Shown in pieces: positions 21,627-33,034 of a stretch of 64,000 nt of DNA. Where the stretch lies: the NCBI GenBank assembly GCA_963924555.1, contig OZ004596.1, positions 744,001-808,000 of the forward strand, in the 5' to 3' direction. The notes beneath the pieces were generated by a model. It saw only the letters and a list, made by a program, of their open reading frames with translations, was not told the DNA's origin and did no database searches. A program made the translations under genes and the position numbers. Positions within the stretch are counted from its first letter, which is position 1, and every line of letters starts with the position of its first letter. The stretch is from Crambe crambe (Eukaryota; Porifera; Demospongiae; Poecilosclerida; Crambeidae).

Positions 21627-24344
21627 TTAGTCTCCTCTGTTGGTGATACGTCTTATCAGTTCCTTCCACACTAGGGAACGTTCTCTGAGAGCACCTGCAA
21701 AGATTCCCCTGTTTTCATTGGCCCGACGTGAGAGGTAAGGTAATACCTCCTTCACTGGACCATACGGCATATATTTGTATGCACTATAACCGGCTTGACC
21801 TGGAAAGTGCATGGAATGATTAAGCATTGGCTACATAGATGGTTACATGTTCATACCTAGTGGAAAAGTTATATGATCACACATCCCTAGAAGCTGCCCA
21901 AACACCACTGTTCCATCAGACTTGGACATCATGTACTCCTGCATCCTAATAGCAATGAAGTATTGTGGCTGTAAATCTTTGAAAAATAAGTAACACTAAG
22001 TGGATAATGATTAATTAAGGGTTGGCATACACACATACACTACACTCACTTTTCTATGGCTCTCTTGATAGTGGCCTCGTTGTGAGATGCCACCATGAAG
22101 TAAACGGGCGAAGGAGGAGTTCCTGTCTTCTCCTGCATCAACAGCTCCATCAGCTTGTGGTAGCAATTGTCTGTGGACTGCTTGTTCGGCCAAATGGGGT
22201 CAGGATACCCTCCTTCCTTGGCCCTTTCTCTTTCCTGTTCCATGTATGCCCCACGGACTAGCTTGACACAGTACAGACAACCAGTCATTTTGGCCAGAGC
22301 AATTTCCATTTTTAGATATTGCTCGGCATCCTAAATGCAGAACAAGTGATATTCACGCAATAAAGGGTAATTCCGAAAGGTAGGGTAATTCTGAACGGTT
22401 CAAGTAATATTCTACTGTCATAGTAGATTATATCTTCCAACTTTGAGCTCAGAAGTAGTAGTTCCAGAAGTATTAGAATTACCCCACTTTATCTTAATAG
22501 ACTGCTATTAATTTAAGCTATCAGCTTACTTTCAAGTAGCACTGAATGGTGTTATAGATGGTTGGTGAGTCCATGTTGTATTTAGGCATGAGTACATTGA
22601 CAGCTATGTGTCTGATGGCAGGTTGGAAGTAGGTCTGTTCAGCATCAATCAGCAGACGCACGCCTTTCTCCTGTGCAAAGTCTGCAAGTTGTTCTGCCCG
22701 TTTGACAACCTTGTCCATTTGATCTAGCTCATCTTTGCGGAGGACTGCAGAGAGTGATCCATCCTGAAGGAAGGAGGGGGCGGGGGGAGGGGAAAAAAGT
22801 GGGATGATAATTATGAGCCTGTGCAAAGTATCAACTGCTTACTCCTTTTTTCTGGAATAAATGATGGAGTTTTGTATCTGGCTGAAATCTGTTACAAAAC
22901 TCGTAGATATTCACTTTCCTACATATGTGAATAGGAATTCACATGATTAATAGGAGGGACGGCCCCATTTCAGGGATAAGTGTTATCACACACAAGGCTT
23001 ATGGGTTACATTTCTAATGATTGAATTACCTACCCTGTTTTATCTTCATCCAGCTGATGAAATAGCCTCTCAGCTTCAGACTCGCTAAGTTGAAACTGTG
23101 ATTCAAGGTGTCAGACAAGTGAAGGGAAGATGTATTGAAACTCTTACCATTAGCTGTTATAACTTAAGTCTAGTTACATGGACACCTATGAACTATATTA
23201 TACTAAGCCTTTACTATACCTTGGTTTCCCTCAAACCCTCATAGAATGATTGTGGTGTGATGCAGCCCTTTGTGACATCGTTTGAGGCTGCCAGCTTCAG
23301 GAAAATCCGCTGGTTATTAGTTACCACTTCACTGAATCGAAGCTAAGGATGAAAGGAGAGACATAAATGAGTCTTCCTGCATCACCTTCTTTCATGTGGT
23401 TAGAACAAGGAAATAAGAGTTTGACTTACAAGGAATTCAACTCTCCCCAAACCTGTTAGTTTGATGGCAGCAAATGCATCTTTCTGATGGTTAGGTTCAT
23501 TGGCTTGTGATGCTGTCTCTATGCAAGACATGAAATGTTTGATGTTCTCTTCACACTGTTCTTCACCGGAATAGAAATGTGTCCGTGCACTCGATTTAGT
23601 GGTGGGTCCAGCCCCCTTGACTTTCCTGGGCTTGAACTGAGGGCTAACGGTGGTGGAATCTATGGGTAACGATGATGCCTGGGCGGGGTCAGTCAGTCGT
23701 ACCTCCATCACTACTTCTTGTTCCTTCCCCAAGTCTTCCTCCACTGCATAGTCAAGGATAGAACGAACACCACTCTGTCGAAGACGGGCTATCATTGGCT
23801 TGATAGCAGCAAGATTTTCTCCCGCTACAAATTGGCCATAAACAGTCTTTTTCATGATCCATATGAAAATTCTTTGACCGAACAGTTTCTGGCATACTTC
23901 CATTAACTATTAGATATACAACCATAACTATTAGATATACAACCATAACTATTAGATATACAACCATAACTATTAGATATACAACCATAACTATTAGATA
24001 TACAACCATAACTATTAGATATACAACCATAACTATTAGATGTACAACCATATAAAATTATGCAATAGTCATAATAACTTGCATGCTCTTAAATGGCTGG
24101 CTACCTCACTCTTTAGGTAGGGTCTTACTGTTTTATTATTATCCACTAAAATCTTGAAGGAGAATATTTTAAACACGACATAGTTTCTCAGAAGTTCGGA
24201 GAAAGTCTTAGATCTGTATGCTTCTTTCGTGTTGCCGAAATCCAACTGCTCGTGTTCGGATGTTGTTTTATCCTGTTTTGCCGTGCTGATGTGTCTCAAG
24301 TACAGCGTCCTCAGAGGTACCTTGGGTCTCAACAACATAGCCAT
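21627..24344 (-). CDS. PRODH: Proline dehydrogenase, mitochondrial
   Basis: Minus-strand gene from ATG 24344 to TAA 21627-21629. The N-terminus ([20 protein letters not shown]) is basic and hydrophobic, as expected of a mitochondrial targeting peptide. The conserved core follows: [115 protein letters not shown] and [20 protein letters not shown]. This is the FAD-binding TIM barrel that oxidises proline to pyrroline-5-carboxylate. A linker exon pair near 22760-23060 contains FHQLDEDKT and GSLSAVL, a degenerate EF-hand-like loop as in other animal PRODH; the splice between these exons is not fully resolved. A second, damaged copy of its first exon lies upstream. Confidence 0.93.
22361..22495. 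mobile_element. Miniature inverted-repeat element, family A copy 1
   Basis: An intronic segment in PRODH with inverted ends (AAAGGGTAATTCCG versus AGAATTACCCCACTTT). Its centre (TAGTAGATTATATC then TTGAGCTCAGAAG) recurs in the ROGDI intron at 33427-33642. It has no coding capacity. Confidence 0.7.
23904..24050. repeat. 21-bp minisatellite in first PRODH intron
   Basis: Seven near-perfect head-to-tail copies of AACTATTAGATATACAACCA plus T span exactly 147 bases. Only the last unit shows a substitution (GATGTACA). The array lies between exon 1 and exon 2 of PRODH. Confidence 0.93.
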
Positions 24345-24422
24345 AACTTTCTCACTCGGCTGTGGTTTCCCTGATGTTTACGGTGATGTCACACCCATGG
24401 CACGCCCCCTTAGGGTGTGCTT

Positions 24423-24724
24423 TAAGTTTCTCATAAGTTCAGAGAAAGTCTTAGATCGGTATGCTTCTTTCATGTTGCCGAAGTCCAACTGCTCGTGTTC
24501 GGATGTTGTTTTATCCTGTTTTGCTGTGCTGATGTGTCTCAAGTACGTATAGTCTGGCGTAGCGGCGACCCTTGTCCTGTTTTGCTGTGCTGATGTGTCT
24601 CAAGTACAGCGGTACCTTGGGTCTTAAGAACCCCAACATAGCCATAACTTTCTCACTGGCTAATTCTAAGTGGTTTCCCCAATGTTTACGATGGTGATGT
24701 TACGCCCCCCTTAGGGTGTGCTTT
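24423..24724 (-). pseudogene. Damaged duplicate of PRODH exon 1 and its promoter
   Basis: The sequence repeats the PRODH first exon and upstream region. The part at 24425-24546 matches the exon body ([20 protein letters not shown], with T to M in the next residues). The part at 24570-24724 matches the exon start (MAMLGFLRPKVPL) plus the upstream motifs TGTTTACG and CCCCTTAGGGTGTGCTTTA. The two parts share a roughly 30-base overlap duplicated at the junction. Reading from the duplicate ATG meets a frame change and a stop, so it cannot simply replace exon 1. It could still act as a second promoter or noncoding first exon. The outer end overlaps the 5' region of TMEM199. Confidence 0.8.
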
Positions 24725-24753
24725 ATTTAGAGCTGTACACATCACATGGAATA

Positions 24754-25773
24754 ATGATGTCTTCTGAGTTGGACTTATGTTACGTAGAATCCACAGACCT
24801 GATCCAGAACGCTGTGAGGCATGTTTTGAGTGTCAGCAGCTGCGATGAGAAGCTGAGAAAGGAATTGAAGCAATGGCAGCAGCTAAGCCTTGTAGCAGAA
24901 GGAGAAGGAGGGAAGGACCCAGGCATATACTGCAGGAAAGAGTCCTGTATTTCATTTGAGTTGATAGTTTCACTTCATCAGCAGCTGCAGAAAACTCCAC
25001 TTGGTATGTGCATAAATACACACACACAGTACGCAGTGCAAAGCAATCTTTCCTATTATTAGCTTCTGGACCAATCTACTTACATGAACTGGTGAATGGT
25101 AGTTCTTTCTGCCTGCCTGAAGTAAGATTTCCGCCTAGAGTGAGTATGGTAAAAGGTTTTCTTGATACAAGTTGGGGAATGGTGTCTTTTTCTTTTTCTT
25201 TTTTTTCTTTTTTTTTTGTCAGAATCCAGAATTGGTGGCTAAGCTGGAACGCATTCAGGCTAAAGCTGACAACAAAGCATACAAACGCATGGTAAAGAAT
25301 GTGGACGTATCAGTGAGTTGCTAATGTAGAGTAGACCCCACCTCAGTGTATTATTGTCACTGTATACAGAGAGATGATTCTGAGTTCCATCGTCTTGGAT
25401 TGGAAGGTGAACTTTCACATGATGTATTATCATACACCATGAGGTTTTTTGTTGTTTTGTATTAGTACAAGCTACTAGCAGGCAGATTTATGTCGTCCTG
25501 AACTTTGTCCTCACTGTCGTGGGCTCCTCCTTATTCGGATACTTTGCGGCATATTATGCTGGTTACAGCACAACAGCAGTAAGTTGCTGGTTGTACGATA
25601 GCTCACAATGTTCAAGCTGTATTATTTCTCTCTCTCTCCTCCAGTGTGTTTTTATAGCACTGATCTGTGGCATAGTGGTCTTCTTGGCTGATATGTACTT
25701 CATAGTCAGAACAGACTTAGTTCCACCAAAGTTACCTGCTTCAAAGCCTCAAATCAAACAGAAAAAAGACTAA
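24754..25773 (+). CDS. TMEM199: TMEM199 / VMA12-like V-ATPase assembly factor
   Basis: Six exons (24754-25003, 25063-25139, 25223-25312, and three more to TAA 25771-25773) splice in phase to a protein of about 230 residues. Human TMEM199 has 208. Landmarks are ISFELIVSLHQQLQK, IYLHELVNGSSFCLPEVRFP, PRNPELVAKLERIQAKADN and YKRMVKNVDV, then two hydrophobic segments (YVVLNFVLTVVGSSLFGYFA and FIALICGIVVFLADMYFIV) and a lysine-rich tail. The family acts in the ER to assemble the membrane sector of the vacuolar proton pump, as yeast Vma12 does. The lysine-rich C-terminus (KQKKD) fits an ER-retrieval signal. I chose the tandem ATG at 24754. An in-frame upstream ATG at 24718 lies in the duplicated PRODH promoter block. 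Confidence 0.9.
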
Positions 25774-25869
25774 CATTATTATTTTACGGCTCATTTAGCT
25801 ACTATACAAAAATGAATAATATCAAATCCAGAGAGCTGGAGTACAATGGCTACATGTAGGACTAGATAG

Positions 25870-28800
25870 CTATTTGTGTATGACAATGTGACGTTCGTTT
25901 CCACTTCCCATAGTTTTGTGGCTGATTCTGAGCCTTTCGGCAGTTTCGTGGACTAAGAGTCGCTCGTAAGAACTCAATGTGGGGGGGAAATGAAATTCTG
26001 AAGACCCACTTGATGCAAACGCTGTTACCTGTTTGATCACATCACTGGTTGTCCCGTCCACAACCTTTTCGGTAGTTAGTCTCAGATCTGCACTTCCATC
26101 AAATTTCAGTTCCAATTGAACTCCATTCTGATTCTTGTAATCTGAAAACTCGTTCCAAAACTTCCTAAATATGTCCTGTAGAGTCTTTTTGGTGGATGGT
26201 GTGTCTTGCACTGCAAAAGATAAACCAGACGTGTAGTTGTTTCCATCTGCTACAACATCAAGTCCACAAGAGAGAAGTTGGCGGATGAATTTTGGCAGTC
26301 GAGCCTCCACAAGAGTTAGTAACTCCCACTCCAATGCTTGTTCACTTGCATCAAACAGCAATTTCACAGGGATGTACCCCTGAGGAGGGAAATCAGGTCT
26401 TACCATCATTTCTTCGTAGCAGGAGGCTGGAAGAACGTCTTTTCGTTCACAGATTTTAGCAAGTTTCTTGAACATATCTGAGATTCGAGGGATGTATTCA
26501 AAAGGTACAAAATCTCCAAAGAGTTTTTGCCACTTTGAAGTTGGGAGTAGAGAAGTGTGGGTCACAAACTTCTTGAATAATGTATCACAGTTGATGGTGG
26601 CTTCTTTGTCAGGATAGTGGTCTCTGTGACTCTTGATGAACTCAGCCAGTAACTTCACCACATGGAAAGTGCGAATGCAATGAAAACTGTTCCCTTTCAA
26701 TCTTTGTGCCGCTAGGACTTGGACTGTCATCTCAACAATCACTCCAAACATTTCACAAGTAACAAAATCCTTCAAAATTCCTTCAATTTTCTCCTGGAGG
26801 ATAGGACCAGAGAGAGCGGTTCGACTTGCCTGATCATCAGCTCTCAAAACCTTTTCAAGATTATCCCTCAGAGACTTCACAGGAGACCGACTGGAGGAAT
26901 TGAAAACTTCGGAAGAGGACAGGATGGCAAAAATGATATCATAATCAATTGATGGAGTGTTTTTGAATTGCAGCATGAGTTTCAGCCGTGGGCATCTTGA
27001 GCTGTAACCCTTGTGGATATGAGTGATGCCACACTTTTCCATCTGATCTGCAAGTTTCTCCAAGCAGTCGAATTGGGTAAATTCGGGTGGCGCTAGAAAG
27101 CAAAGGTCAACATCGCTTCTTCTGCCGAGAACATGAGAACCAAAGACAAGGGTAATGGCACTAGGATCCCCTTGGAATCCTGTGATTTTACAAAATTGTG
27201 ATCCAATGAACTGGATGCCAGCTCGAGCAGCTGCAGTATGCTCTGGACTTGGCAATAACCCACGGGTTATTAGGAAAGTACCAATGGCTGACTTTGAGCT
27301 CTCGGGTAAGGGCACAGACTGGGTTATACAGGTTGAATCAATGATTTCAAAATCGATTTTCCTTTTTCGAGGTATCAGGGAAAACTGTCTCACAGCCTCC
27401 AAATTGTCTTTCCGATCATCCCAAAACTTCACTAGTGTGACATCAGGGAATTTCTCAAGGAGCTTGCTAAGGGAACGTGCTTTGAAAGCAGGACTAGCTT
27501 CCTGAGCATCATAGGATTTCAGAATCAGTAAATCAGCAGACAGCTGGTGGTCAGTTAGCACTCTCCTCACAGCTTCTTCCACTCTTTGAAGTCTTGCAGT
27601 AAGAATGACAGTGTAGCTCTCCGCTCTACCAAAATGGCTACGATAATCTGGCAAGGCAGGTCCAGGATGGATTCTCAAAGGTGGGAGAAGTGACTCTGGT
27701 CTGCTCAGCCATCCCTTATGGGGCCACCTGTGACCCATGCTCTTCTCATAGAGCTGTTGTCCAGCAACAGGATCTGGAGTATCGAAGAGAGTCCCATCAA
27801 AGTCAAAGATATAAAGCTTAGTGACTTTTTGAACACCCATGCATATTGAGACAGCATCTGGTGAAGGTTTTGATCCAGTATCTCTGATTCGAGCTGAGAT
27901 TTGATCTGGGAGTAATCTTGGAACGATTTCACCCATAAAGTGCTTCTTAGACAAAACTGTGTACGTTTCAGCCTCCGAAAGATCCTTAGAGACAGTTACT
28001 TCTCCCTCTGGCTTCAATTCTTCAGGAAGAGCCTCTCTTACAACCACACCCACTATCCCTTCCAGCTGCAGCGGGTTTGGGAGAGGAGTAACTGGCTGGG
28101 ATCGCAGCATCTCATTAGCAAACTTTGGGGCTGATGTTTTCTCCATTGAAACAGTGATATGAGGATGCAGGTTGATACTGTGAACCCCTTTTGGCAGATC
28201 AACAGTTACGGCTTGGATTTGGGAACTGTCTGCCACACCCCTGACTGTGACTGGCACTCTTTTGCCGATACTCATTCTCTTGATAGCACTCAAAGGTGGC
28301 ATGAATGTCAAAGTGACATGATCTGCCAGGATTTTTGGATGTGACGGAGGTACAGAAGAGACCAGCTCCCATTGGGATTTTGGCGTCAGGAAAATCCCCA
28401 CGTAAACGGGAACCAAGGGGGTGACAGCTGCCCGGAACTTCTCAGGAAGATATCCAGGATGATACAGAGAGAGGAGAGAAAGATTAGGAACCTCAAGGGT
28501 AGAATCAGCGCTTTGAGGATACACTAACTTCGGTGGAACTAACACAGCTCTGTCATCTGCTTCCCAGCGATCAGTCAACAACTTTATTGATGTAGCATTC
28601 ACCTTATGAAGGTTCCTTGAGCTATACTTACTGGCAATGTCATGACTGGGATGTGGTATCTCCAGGATATGATACTCTATTCCCAACAGCTTGCAGAGAT
28701 AGATGTACAGTTTGTATTCCCAGATCATGGAATTTGTATTGTCAACGATTACCACTTTCTTTTCATCTTTCACTGCCTGAAGGAAACTCTCGCAACATTT

Positions 28801-30779
28801 AGCGTGGGCCTTGGGGAGAGATCTTGGATTGAAGTTATAAGTACCCCCGGCTTCATTAAAGTAATCGTCAGCACTACAAATGGCGATGTCCTCCTCAGAG
28901 CAGTGATTTGATAAATACGACTTGCCACTCCCAGGAAGACCTCTCATGATAACCACTTTACTCTTCCAGGAATTAAGCATTTGTTTATTCATGTGGACGA
29001 GCTGATAAATAGTCTTGATGGCACTATCAAAGTTAGTGGTACTAGAAGATTCAGAAGTGGAATTAATAAGCTTATCACCTTCAATTTCATCGATTAGATG
29101 ATTTTTTTGGAGTTGGTGGACACACTTTGAGAGAATAGAGGGAACAGTAGGTGATAAGTAGACCAGCGAATTTGAAACAGAGTGAAGTCGTTTATAAAAT
29201 CCATCCTCTGGTTGTATTGGGTCAATCTTTGAACACAGATGGATAGTGTTTATACACTGTTTCCCTATGTCCATCTCACTAAACTGACAGTAAGATCTTT
29301 CATCGATGATTGTGGTGTGAACATCACGTTGCATTGGTCGAGACATCTTCACTAGGGTCATGTGCGGGGTGAATTTTTCATGATTTCCAGGGGTCTTCAA
29401 TCCAGCATTCTTGAAGTGCTCAATGAGATAAGACGAAAATTTGTTAAGAGCTGTGTTGGGCAAAACTTTAGCGTAGACCAATCGACCACGGAAATGATCC
29501 ACACCAGTAAATACAAGATCAGTACATCTCGGAAGATATTGGATAAAATGCTTTTTAGCATCCTCCAACACTTTCCTTGCGGTGTCAAGATGAGATGTCT
29601 TTTCTAACTGGACCATACACATTGTAACATGGAGAGCAGTGAGAGGCAAACAGCCTTCACCCAAGTGTGGATACTGACTAACAATGTGTTCTTGGATTCT
29701 TTGAACGTTGGATATGATGCCTTCATTGGTGATATGAATGCAAACAAAATGAGTTGGTCTGTCCTGATGCATATGTTGCTGATTTGATGGTGGAATGTCC
29801 TCCTTACCCATCTCTGCATCAACAGCTCCACTTCTCATCTTTTCATCACTGCTGCTTTGCTTCAAAGTGTAAGCTTCAATGATATCTTGTACAACTTTCC
29901 CCCCTCTTGATCCAAAAACATTGTCCAACTGTTCCCTCTTATCCCACACGACTTCATCTCGATATTTGAAGTACTGGATCCGATGTTTTGGAATAGCAAG
30001 AACTTTTGGTCCGACGGTAGCCAGGTCTTCCCAGCTGAAAGCACTAAAGGGTTTCTCAATAATACCAACGAACCTATCCAAGTATCCAATGGTGAATTCT
30101 TCCGTTTTCAAGTCTGGATCCCACAAAATCCGAGAAATGACATCAGCAGCAGTCCTCATGGAACTCTTCTTTGATTCGTTCCTTTGGGCAGAGCTATCAG
30201 ATTCTTCCGTAACATTCACACTCTCTTCAGATGATGTGACAGGGACTAAGTTTTTATCCTTGTCTTGTTTTGACTGACTAGACTTCGAACCAGGGTGATA
30301 GTTTCGGCATTTATCACCAAATCTACAGTTCCCTTTGGCAAAGAACTTGCAGATGTTCTGTGGAGGACTCTCCTTGACAGGTGATTTCTTAGTGACGACA
30401 GGACCGGTGTTCATAGAGAAAGGGTGGCTGTCAATCCACTCCTTCACAGCACTGAATAGTTCAAACAACATAGGAGAGCCAACCAGGTTCTTTATTGAGC
30501 TCATGATGTGTTGACGTAAGCCCACAGCTTCCAAGTGGTCTGGAAGAACGAGCATAGGAATGACTTCAGGGTAGTTTCCTAAGCAACACATGAAAGGGGA
30601 AAAAATAAAAGTGGAAAAGACAGCAAAGTAAGTGATTTACTATTAATCTCGACTCTCAGTATTGGCTCTCCATTTATACGGAACAGGACTACTTTTGATT
30701 CACTGTTTCCTTCAGCCACCAAGAGTTCCTCTGAGTAGACACATTCAACTGCTTCCAATTCTTCCTTCAATGCTTCCAT
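25870..30779 (-). CDS. Multidomain RNA-end repair protein (RWD-CCCH-MJ1316-2H-kinase-2H-HAD-nucleotidyltransferase-R3H)
   Basis: Two exons (30641-30779 and 25870-30578, joined in phase) give 1,615 residues. Residues 1 to about 100 look like an RWD domain with the YPEVIP motif. A CCCH zinc finger spans Cys123-His141 (C-x7-C-x5-C-x3-H). An MJ1316/DUF504 domain lies at about 190-270 (VISRILWDPD, YLDRFVGI, VWDKREQ). The first 2H phosphoesterase domain, AKAP7-like, has His363 (HVTM) and His452 (HMTL). A P-loop kinase carries GLPGSGKS (593-600), SADDYF and VDNTN. A second 2H domain resembles the tRNA-ligase phosphodiesterase (HVTLTF at 800, HPHITVS at 851). A HAD phosphatase has DFDGT (972-976) and WDDRKDN. 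A nucleotidyltransferase has GSHVLGRRSDVDL plus a DYD third acidic site (1258-1260). R3H closes the chain (about 1576-1615). The front part matches LENG9 in layout. All catalytic residues appear intact. The predicted role is sensing and healing cleaved RNA ends; no ligase domain is visible. Confidence 0.9.
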
Positions 30780-31003
30780 AACTGAGATGGCTAGCTAGTA
30801 AATCGTATGATATTTGACCCAATAGCTAGATAGCTAGCTCATCTTTATGTGAATGGACGCTGATGATTGCACCATAAAGATTGCAAGGTGTGGTGCAACG
30901 GTAGCTAGCTCCACCCCGGAGCCACACCCCACCCTCTTATTACGCATGCGCAGAAAGAGCATCTCTCTTCTAAGCACATGGTGGTAAGGTGTAGGTCTGT
31001 AAG
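30780..31003. promoter_or_regulatory. Divergent promoter (RNA-repair gene / RPL23A)
   Basis: A 224-bp head-to-head interval between start codons. The ribosomal-protein side contains ATGCGCAG near 30943-30951 and a pyrimidine-rich TCTCTCTTCT at 30962-30971. The latter resembles a terminal oligopyrimidine transcription start typical of ribosomal protein genes. The region is too short to hold two separate classical promoters. Confidence 0.5.
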
Positions 31004-31651
31004 ATGCCGAAGGAGAAGGAGAAGCCAGGAACCGGTAAGTATATCAACAGTCGTGTTTAGAATCATTTGCATAAGTCTCTGGTTACCGTCTCATTCAGCT
31101 GCCAGCAAGGCAAAGGCCAATGCCCTCAAGGCAAAAAAGGCTGTTTTAAAGGGAAAACACACTACCATCAAGAAAAAGATTAGGACAAAGGTGACCTTTT
31201 ATCGTCCAAAGACTCTAAAGAAGACCCGTCAGCCCAAGTACCCTCGACGGTCAGCTCCAAGGAGAAGCAGAATGGACCACTATTCCATAATTCGGCATCC
31301 CCTGACAACTGAGTCAGCCATGAAGAAAATTGAGGATAACAACACCCTTGTGTTCATGGTGCATCTGCGTGCCAATAAACCACAGATCAAAGTGGCAGTA
31401 AAGAAGCTCTATGATATAGATGTGGCAAAGGTTAACACTCTAGTCAGGTAAAGGGTCTTACATTTGCTAACCAGAATGGTTTACATTATTCATTCTTTAT
31501 AATAGACCGGATGGACAAAAGAAAGCGTATGTGAGACTTGCTTCAGATTACGATGCACTAGATGTTGCTAATAAGGCGAGTATTAATCGAGTGTCCTAAA
31601 TATGATATAAACCCTGCCTCCTTTCTTTTTCCACAGATTGGCATAATCTGA
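31004..31651 (+). CDS. RPL23A: 60S ribosomal protein L23a (uL23)
   Basis: Four exons (31004-31034, 31099-31447, 31506-31575, 31637-31651) give a complete protein of 154 residues; human L23a has 156. The basic N-terminal extension ([17 protein letters not shown]) precedes the conserved uL23 core: [68 protein letters not shown] and [20 protein letters not shown], ending in GII. It binds 26S/28S rRNA near the exit tunnel. The third intron uses a GC donor (AAG then GCGAGT) instead of GT. The introns are only about 58-64 bases, too short to host snoRNAs as the vertebrate gene does. Confidence 0.97.
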
Positions 31652-31767
31652 GGAACTTAACATTTCATGGTCTCTTTTTCGCAAAAAAATGTTCAATGAA
31701 TGTGACCTTTTTAAAAAACATTCCACTGGTATTGTAATCTTTTGGTTAAAAAAAATACAAGAAAAGT

Positions 31768-33034
31768 TAATATGTTGCCCTTCCACCAGTTATATCAAAG
31801 CAGAAGCCAGTATTGAAACTAGCCTCCTTGGACACAATGAACTTGGTGATGCTGGCAATTTCTGCAATAGTGCAGCACCTAGATAGCAAATATTCCATCT
31901 AATGCACACTGTTACAAAAAACTGCCATCAACAACACGCACCTTTTCATTGGGATCTTATCGGTCATGTACTTGACCTGGTCAGGGTCCATGCTCTCCAC
32001 CATGGCTGTCCGAACAACTGCAGGAGCTATGGCATTGATTGTGATTCCTGTCTCTGCATATTCTTTTCCAACAGATTTCACCAACCCGATCACAGCTGCT
32101 TTACTTGTGCTGTATGCAGACATTCCTGCATTACCCTATCAATACTCAATAATGTAACAATAAGTCACTTTTCCAGTTACTACACACACCTCTTTTCCTG
32201 CAATGGAAGCAATGAGAAGGACACGGCCATAGTTGTTCTTCTTCATCTCTTGTAGGGAGTATTTTGTCATCAGGAAACTTCCACGAACATTAACTGTGTG
32301 GAATTATATTTGCAGCATAAGTTAAAGGGTATGTGCATGTGGAGTCATATTGCAGAATAATTGCAGCACAAGTTAAAGGGCATGTGTATGTGGAGTCATA
32401 TTGCAGAACAAGCCAAAGGGTATGTGCATGCAGAGTCATATTGCAGAATAATTGCAGCACAAGTTAAAGGGTATGTGTATGTGGAGTCATATTGCAGAAC
32501 AAGCCAAAGGGTATGTGTATGTGGAGTTATATTGCATGTATGCAAAGGTACATAACTACCTTCATAAACCTTGTCAAATTTTGCTGTTTCCACGTCTTCA
32601 ACTTTCAAGCCATTGGGTCCTACTATGCCTGCACTGTTCACCATGATATCCAATCGTCCACACTCGTCTCTGACCTTCTGAAAGCCTGCCTTGACTGACT
32701 CCTCGTTGGACACATCAACCTTGCAGAAGAGTCCTCGAGATTCTTTCAGAGAGCTGGCTACTTTTTGACCTTTATCCTCATCAAAGTCGAATATCACCAC
32801 TTTCGCAGCACCATTATCGCACAGCATCCTGGCAATGCCTTCTCCAAGTCCCTGTCCTCCTCCTGTCACTATGGCTATCTAGAATCAATATGATCAGATG
32901 CTGACATGATAGAAGTGAGGCATCTACAAAGTTTATAGCTAAACTCATGTGGCTATTTGCAAATCTTCTAGTTGCACCTAACTATCTATGGAAAATAGTC
33001 TTACTTGATCAGTGAAAATTCCTGTCTGCGCCAT
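31768..33034 (-). CDS. Short-chain dehydrogenase/reductase, FabG-like
   Basis: Five exons on the minus strand (first 33005-33034, second 32560-32878) run from ATG 33034 to TAA 31768-31770 and encode about 250 residues. The cofactor motif is TGGGQGLGEGIA, followed by FDFDEDKG, VNSAGIVG and the catalytic YSTSKAA (Tyr-x3-Lys) preceded by LLIASIAGKEG. The end reads DITGGRATY, typical of classical SDRs. It belongs to the 3-oxoacyl-ACP reductase-like group, using NAD(P)H on an unidentified carbonyl or alcohol. Its start lies only 89 bp from the divergent ROGDI start, and it converges on RPL23A with a gap of 116 bp. Confidence 0.92.
32322..32545. repeat. 91-bp minisatellite in SDR intron
   Basis: About two and a half copies of a 91-bp unit built from two related half-units (ATTGCAGCACAAGTTAAAGG and GCAGAACAAGCCAAAGG), each followed by GTATGTG and GGAGTCATATT. 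The array sits in the second intron of the reductase gene. Confidence 0.85.

Follow-up and report, generated by a model that had tools for sequence, protein, structure and literature searches.

A sponge gene whose predicted product appears to join RNA-binding and RNA-end-processing domains in one chain

Does a single protein of the sponge Crambe crambe carry the enzymes that would heal both ends of a broken RNA, and if so, for what purpose? The question is raised by a gene on the minus strand of a 64,000-nucleotide stretch of DNA, called the window here (contig OZ004596.1, positions 744,001 to 808,000, assembly GCA_963924555.1; 143 Mb in 119 contigs). An original prediction, made from the letters of the window alone, had described a 1,615-residue product as an almost complete RNA-end repair toolkit. 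From its sequence, this appears to be a very long animal-type gene encoding one protein that joins RNA-binding and end-processing parts. We think it probable that the protein heals (and tails) RNA ends as an enzyme of the 'Swiss Army Knife' (SAK) kind, and that it would serve repair together with a separate ligase.

The extent that had been predicted for the gene (25870..30779) and the length of its product are reproduced exactly by a splice model that runs from the ATG at 30779, across a 62-base intron, to the stop at 25870 (Table 1). The splice was placed where it is because joining the two exons there makes an RWD domain complete. A single frame, as originally claimed, therefore holds for the residues beyond 46, the first 46 coming from exon 1. 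The stop-to-stop frame that holds exon 2 is of 1588 codons and the runner-up in the whole 64 kb window is of 417, so that exon 2 is unusually long for its surroundings; in a simple base-composition model the probability of a given frame of the main exon's length is around 10^-43, which rules out a chance open frame. Two genes misread as one are likewise ruled out for exon 2 by the single 1588-codon frame, in line with the one protein that had been predicted. Bacterial contamination of the assembly is unlikely given the inferred intron, an RPL23A-like gene lying head to head with this one, the 6.5 Mb length of the contig and, on a contig of 9.2 Mb, a second copy in decayed form.

Nine domains were recognised in the product, and for seven of these at least one Pfam model scores above its cut-off: RWD, CCCH, MJ1316, an AKAP7-type 2H phosphoesterase, the P-loop kinase, HAD_SAK_1 (in part) and R3H. 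The remaining two, the second 2H and the nucleotidyltransferase, fall below it. The original list of domains was thus incomplete, since it lacked the N-terminal RWD, and two of its members stand on weak evidence. Profile searches, which it had put forward as a check on the folds, confirm the kinase and the HAD domain and leave the nucleotidyltransferase without a family above cut-off. All of the catalytic motifs that it quoted are present, each of them once, and by direct reading the motifs expected of all five enzymatic domains are in place; they include D972, D974, T1040, K1079, D1100 and D1101 of the HAD domain, which we take to be its catalytic residues. The healing of RNA ends as the theme common to the domains also stood.

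Table 1. Parts of the gene and of its predicted product. Positions are those of the window; residue numbers are positions in the 1615-residue spliced protein; motifs were read directly from the translation; E, expectation value.
Feature	Residues	Positions	Strand	Motifs (residue)	Evidence or remark
Exon 1		30641..30779	-		139 bases; ATG 30779-30777; first half of RWD domain; sequence and splice model
Intron		30579..30640	-		62 bases, GT...AG; inferred from the RWD domain that the splice completes
Exon 2		25870..30578	-		Remainder of protein; stop 25872-25870
RWD (intron-interrupted)	2-95	30433..30776	-		PF05773 E 8.6e-8 on the spliced N-terminus, 32.8 bits, cut-off 22.8
CCCH zinc finger	121-140	30298..30357	-		PF18044 (zf-CCCH_4) E 4.4e-6, 26.7 bits, cut-off 24.6
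MJ1316	187-260	29938..30159	-		PF04457 E 4.6e-27
First 2H phosphoesterase, AKAP7 type	321-514	29176..29757	-	HVTM (363), HMTL (452)	PF10469 (AKAP7_NLS) E 3.5e-33
P-loop kinase, polynucleotide-kinase-like	588-706	28600..28956	-	Walker A GLPGSGKS (593-600), SADDYF, DNTN, SSRN	PF13671 (AAA_33) E 3e-11
Second 2H, tRNA-ligase-CPD-like	about 772-880 (limits by eye)	28078..28404	-	HVTL (800), HITV (853)	PF08302 E 0.0021, 18 bits, cut-off 23
HAD phosphatase-like	about 966-1127 (start by eye)	27337..27822	-	DFDGT (972), ILTAR (1038), FKAR (1078), WDDRKDN (1099)	PF10307 (HAD_SAK_1) E 1.3e-9, 38.6 bits, cut-off 25.6, residues 1033-1127
Nucleotidyltransferase palm and following region, poly(A)-polymerase-like	1171-1346	26680..27207	-	GS (1193), SDVD (1201-1204; D1202, D1204), DYD (1258-1260; D1260)	hhalign score 30.0 to bacterial profile
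R3H	1560-1615	25873..26040	-		PF01424 E 1.4e-12; SMUBP-2 structure 1msz E 4.8e-5

In the N-terminal part, three other Pfam CCCH models were listed, each scoring under its own cut-off, and the MJ1316 match is the only one that a profile search of the genome returned. MJ1316 has been described as a recogniser of cyclic ends, in a paper that treats release factors and cites the work on SAK proteins (PMC6514570). The first 2H domain matches the AKAP7/AKAP18 structures 5jj2 (2.3e-11) and 2vfk (1.2e-10) in a phmmer search, with both H-x-T motifs aligned. AKAP7 and an oyster relative are reported to cut 2'-5' bonds, AKAP7 leaving a 2',3'-cyclic phosphate (PMC8406329), and on this likeness a 2'-5' phosphodiesterase is the likelier identity of the first 2H. 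Since an enzyme of that type leaves a cyclic phosphate, the opening of such ends, originally a role of the 2H enzymes in general, is better assigned to the second 2H.

The middle of the protein carries the link to the SAK proteins. HAD_SAK_1, whose Pfam description bears the 'Swiss Army Knife' RNA repair name, scores above its cut-off (Table 1), which supports the link that had been proposed, and this gene gives the sole HAD_SAK_1 match found in the genome. The match spans positions 75-177 of the 203 in the profile and leaves the DFDGT motif outside; a phage family named polynucleotide kinase in PHROG, phrog_415, matches residues 961-1111 at 7.1e-8 and takes it in. Two further PHROG families match in the kinase region, phrog_2071, named ATPase (9.9e-20), and phrog_505, named polynucleotide kinase (1.1e-9). 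When the whole frame was searched against phage sequences 320 records were found at E of 0.01 or below; among the 20 listed, all fall on the kinase or the HAD domain, and two of those on the HAD domain are stand-alone proteins, encoded by uncultured phages 635 and 642 kb in size. The genes of these two phage proteins (L015:2489-3007 and L016:2492-3016) lie in similar neighbourhoods. A scan of viral contigs with six peptide patterns from the 1573-residue frame, which detects close relatives only, gave no match. We take the overlap of two PADLOC models with the kinase region (6e-10 and 0.0064) as a shared P-loop signal.

The nucleotidyltransferase was placed through bacterial proteins of parallel design. 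A plasmid search with the sponge protein gave one match at E of 0.01 or below, between its MJ1316 domain and a Calothrix plasmid gene annotated thpR_2 (AP018209.1, 75375-78350; L017:476-3448), the 991-residue product of which combines a poly(A) polymerase with MJ1316, EEP-type and 2H domains. For the polymerase part of this protein there is also a match to a PADLOC 'oligonucleotide-cyclase' model (1.9e-7). A genome scan with the Calothrix protein as query found 10 loci in Calothrix and Nostoc, one of them partial, and a plasmid scan found seven records, the query's own being included in both counts; Pfam recognised the same four parts in two actinobacterial stretches. Like the sponge protein, these bacterial proteins (from Calothrix, Nostoc, Embleya and Nonomuraea) have MJ1316 in front, a phosphatase-type enzyme and a 2H domain in the middle and a polymerase at the end. 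They differ in having an EEP-type domain where the sponge protein has the kinase, CPD and HAD domains, and no RWD, CCCH or R3H was among the Pfam matches of the three bacterial proteins scanned, two of which were scanned as the matched stretch only. The occurrence of these parallel designs on both plasmids and chromosomes suggests more than one origin or spread of the design.

A profile was built from 12 of these proteins, drawn from 13 loci (L018-L027 and L033-L035, with the partial L027 left out); L036, L037 and the seventh plasmid record, H29, lay outside it. It is a shallow profile, its rows being mostly close relatives, and as the rows are the longest stop-to-stop frames of their loci, they include residues ahead of the true start. 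Against residues 1171-1346 it gave the hhalign score listed in Table 1, which none of 200 shuffles of the segment reached (maximum 23.2). The reversed segment scored 15.7 and four windows without the region 13.1-16.7, compared to 29.4 and 29.8 for two windows with it; the kinase, second 2H, HAD and LENG9-like segments scored 11.5-15.5, and ten earlier shuffles at most 18.2. This is moderate evidence that the region is poly(A)-polymerase-like.

The protein can be set beside several known systems. SAK RNA repair proteins, reportedly described by Burroughs and Aravind in 2016, resemble it in carrying several RNA-end enzymes per chain; here the kinase, the HAD domain and the AKAP7-type 2H lie over their cut-offs, and the second 2H and the polymerase lie under theirs. 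The sponge protein differs from them in that no ligase domain was found in its chain. Vertebrate LENG9 consists of CCCH, MJ1316 and AKAP7-type 2H domains; compared by this architecture, it corresponds in the same order to the N-terminal third of the sponge protein, which goes beyond it in the kinase, second 2H, HAD, polymerase-like and R3H domains. T4 Pnkp and the metazoan PNKP share with it a P-loop kinase and a HAD phosphatase in one chain, and PHROG polynucleotide kinase families match both regions; in the sponge protein, however, the two are split by the CPD-like domain, and the HAD domain matches HAD_SAK_1, not PNK3P. The order of kinase and then 2H CPD is that of the lancelet (Branchiostoma floridae) PNK/CPDase and of the yeast Trl1 module (PMC3400036, PMC5434554), both of which are reported active in vitro (PMC5434554). 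As described, the lancelet healing enzyme consists of kinase and CPD only, ligation in that animal falling to a protein of its own (PMC3400036); the CPD match of the sponge protein is under the Pfam cut-off. In bdelloid rotifers, the subject of two more papers that cite the work on SAK proteins, RNA-ligase-type genes are reported to rise on fungal attack (PMC11258130) and after radiation (PMC10809525). None of the literature titles and abstract openings surveyed describes the architecture found here; the same architecture may already stand in public records, since eukaryotic protein databases lay outside the comparison.

Cleavage by many ribonucleases yields 2',3'-cyclic phosphate and 5'-OH ends, and a ligase that uses a 5'-phosphate needs a phosphorylated 5' end and a cyclic end that has been opened and cleared. 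The domains could carry out these steps in the following way. The CCCH, MJ1316 and R3H domains would hold the RNA, MJ1316 favouring 2',3'-cyclic ends according to its published assignment. The second 2H would open the cyclic phosphate, the HAD domain would remove the 3' (or 2') phosphate that remains and leave a hydroxyl, and the kinase would phosphorylate the second piece at its 5'-hydroxyl. Once the 3' end is clean, the poly(A)-polymerase-like domain could extend it, either rebuilding a lost nucleotide or adding a tail, and the first, AKAP7-type 2H would most likely cut 2'-5' bonds. In addition, the RWD domain may bring the protein to Gcn1 and stalled ribosomes. The activities, the order of the steps, the ligase partner and the site of action of the protein are in each case predictions from sequence.

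Since no ligase domain was found in the chain, rejoining would need a separate gene, and the claim of an almost complete toolkit is to be read as one of healing domains, with candidate ligases encoded by other genes of the same genome. Those Pfam matches of the protein that have 'ligase' in their names are 2H families. Rejoining would most simply fall to one of two RNA_ligase-family (PF09414) genes that the genome profile search detected. The first, at C19:5787373-5787747 (2.9e-29), can be modelled as two exons encoding 259 residues, in which stretches of KVDG, EG and KLVR are present and the only Pfam match is RNA_ligase (1.3e-32); the second is at C18:1548144-1548662 (5.5e-13). RtcB gave five matches at C5 and the Tpt1 family one at C13. 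Searches of the genome for Trl1-type and RLIG1-type ligases were empty, and as their controls were silent too this result is uninformative either way.

Several observations weigh against a healing enzyme that works with a separate ligase. The nucleotidyltransferase had no significant match in Pfam, NCBIfam, the PDB, phages or plasmids: its best Pfam family is the palm of the mitochondrial-poly(A)-polymerase-like (MTPAP-like) enzymes at 0.026 and its best NCBIfam model MntA at 0.019, both under cut-off, and the phage and plasmid searches returned nothing at E up to 1. Furthermore, hhalign gives its alignment to the bacterial profile a probability of 8.6% (14.2% with a narrower segment), and residues 1300-1575 alone score 21.0, under the best shuffle (23.2) of the longer segment. 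The best family of the second 2H, the fungal tRNA ligase CPD, is under the Pfam cut-off (18 vs 23 bits); a sequence search of the PDB gave no significant relative and the phage search one match at 0.7. AAA_33 takes in P-loop proteins in general, and the NCBIfam model for PNK matches the kinase (0.0014) far under its cut-off, so that family matches leave the substrate of the kinase unfixed; the lancelet PNK/CPDase, for its part, is reported to prefer DNA in a kinase assay (PMC5434554), which calls for caution in naming RNA as the substrate here. Sequence searches of the PDB gave no significant match for the kinase segment (Pnkp matched at 0.74 and above) or for the HAD segment. AlphaFold run without an alignment was unusable, with pLDDT of 39.0 for a 420-residue piece and 36.2 for a 346-residue piece. 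In the genome, a separate PNK3P (PNKP-type) gene is present at C8:3556417, and therefore the pairing of kinase and phosphatase is not unique to this protein. Among the candidate partners there is one stop within the matched stretch on C18, stops within two of the five RtcB matches and two within the Tpt1 match; as the search reads through introns, these internal stops need not mean decay.

Much of the same chemistry would serve a different fate. Exonucleases act poorly on fragments whose ends are 5'-OH and cyclic phosphate, and the protein might condition such fragments for decay: the kinase would turn their 5' ends into substrates of Xrn1-type enzymes, the 3' side would be healed and tailed for 3'-5' decay, and the RWD domain would place the protein at collided ribosomes. 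The lack of a ligase domain in the chain fits this too, and the original claim that the nucleotidyltransferase extends or adenylylates the healed end can be carried only as far as a place near poly(A)-polymerase-like enzymes, tailing for decay being as open as the rebuilding of an end. Yeast Trl1 is reported to phosphorylate 5'-OH ends that arise in no-go decay (PMC6949252). Gcn1, which is found on stalled ribosomes, is described as bound by the RWD domains of Gcn2 and Gir2 (PMC8040806), and by analogy this suggests a possible site of action for the sponge protein, whose own RWD would bind Gcn1 likewise. The two RNA_ligase-family loci of the genome and the repair name of the HAD_SAK family both argue against decay. 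Decay is a possible fate that we hold tentatively, the healing of ends for repair being the one that we prefer.

Alternatively, the protein could be mainly an enzyme of 2'-5' oligonucleotides, the AKAP7-type 2H destroying 2-5A-like signals and a PAP/OAS-type nucleotidyltransferase perhaps even making them. The first 2H is well matched to the AKAP7 type (Table 1), for which cutting of 2'-5' bonds is reported as above (PMC8406329), and the nucleotidyltransferase has the polymerase-beta-type set of palm motifs. Nevertheless, a Pfam search of that segment at E up to 5 gave no OAS family, the alignment of the polymerase region is to a poly(A)-polymerase profile, and the kinase, HAD and second 2H domains would be left unexplained; we therefore regard such a role as improbable. 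It is likewise improbable that some of the enzymatic domains have decayed into RNA-binding scaffolds, as in vertebrate CNPase, the kinase-like domain of which is reported to be without kinase activity (PMC5434554), for despite the divergence of the second 2H and the nucleotidyltransferase, all five enzymatic domains keep their expected motif residues by reading.

The healing of ends for repair can be extended to a fuller and more speculative proposal, which we consider unlikely to hold in every part. In it, the RWD domain would take the protein to Gcn1 on stalled ribosomes, where it would sense the cyclic ends of cleaved tRNA, rRNA or mRNA, heal both ends, extend the 3' side and pass the pieces to a separate Rnl2-like ligase encoded in the same genome. 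Were this true, animals would have a route of RNA repair that runs parallel to RtcB. Two routes of RNA ligation have been described in animal cells (PMC5434554), and for the RLIG1 ligase the healing partners CLP1, ANGEL2, CNP and TRPT1 are proposed in accounts that present their joint action as not demonstrated (PMC11071452, PMC13247085). The healing partners of the 5'-phosphate ligation route being unsettled, one healing protein and separate ligase genes in the same genome offer a concrete and testable candidate, and such a protein would also bring the sensing of RNA ends (MJ1316), the cutting of 2'-5' bonds and tailing together in one molecule.

The surroundings of the gene gave some further observations. 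Its neighbour is a ribosomal protein gene, RPL23A-like by reading, the start codon of which is at 31004 and that of the repair gene at 30779; the 224 bases between the first bases of the two start codons suggest a common promoter region. A search of window positions 24000-33000 against Rfam gave no match above gathering scores. A decayed copy of the 3' end of the gene, with stops, lies at C8:5904387-5904781, and adjoining it is a frame named by reading as proline-dehydrogenase-like, as there is also near the gene in the window; the copy and this neighbour are an apparent segmental duplication.

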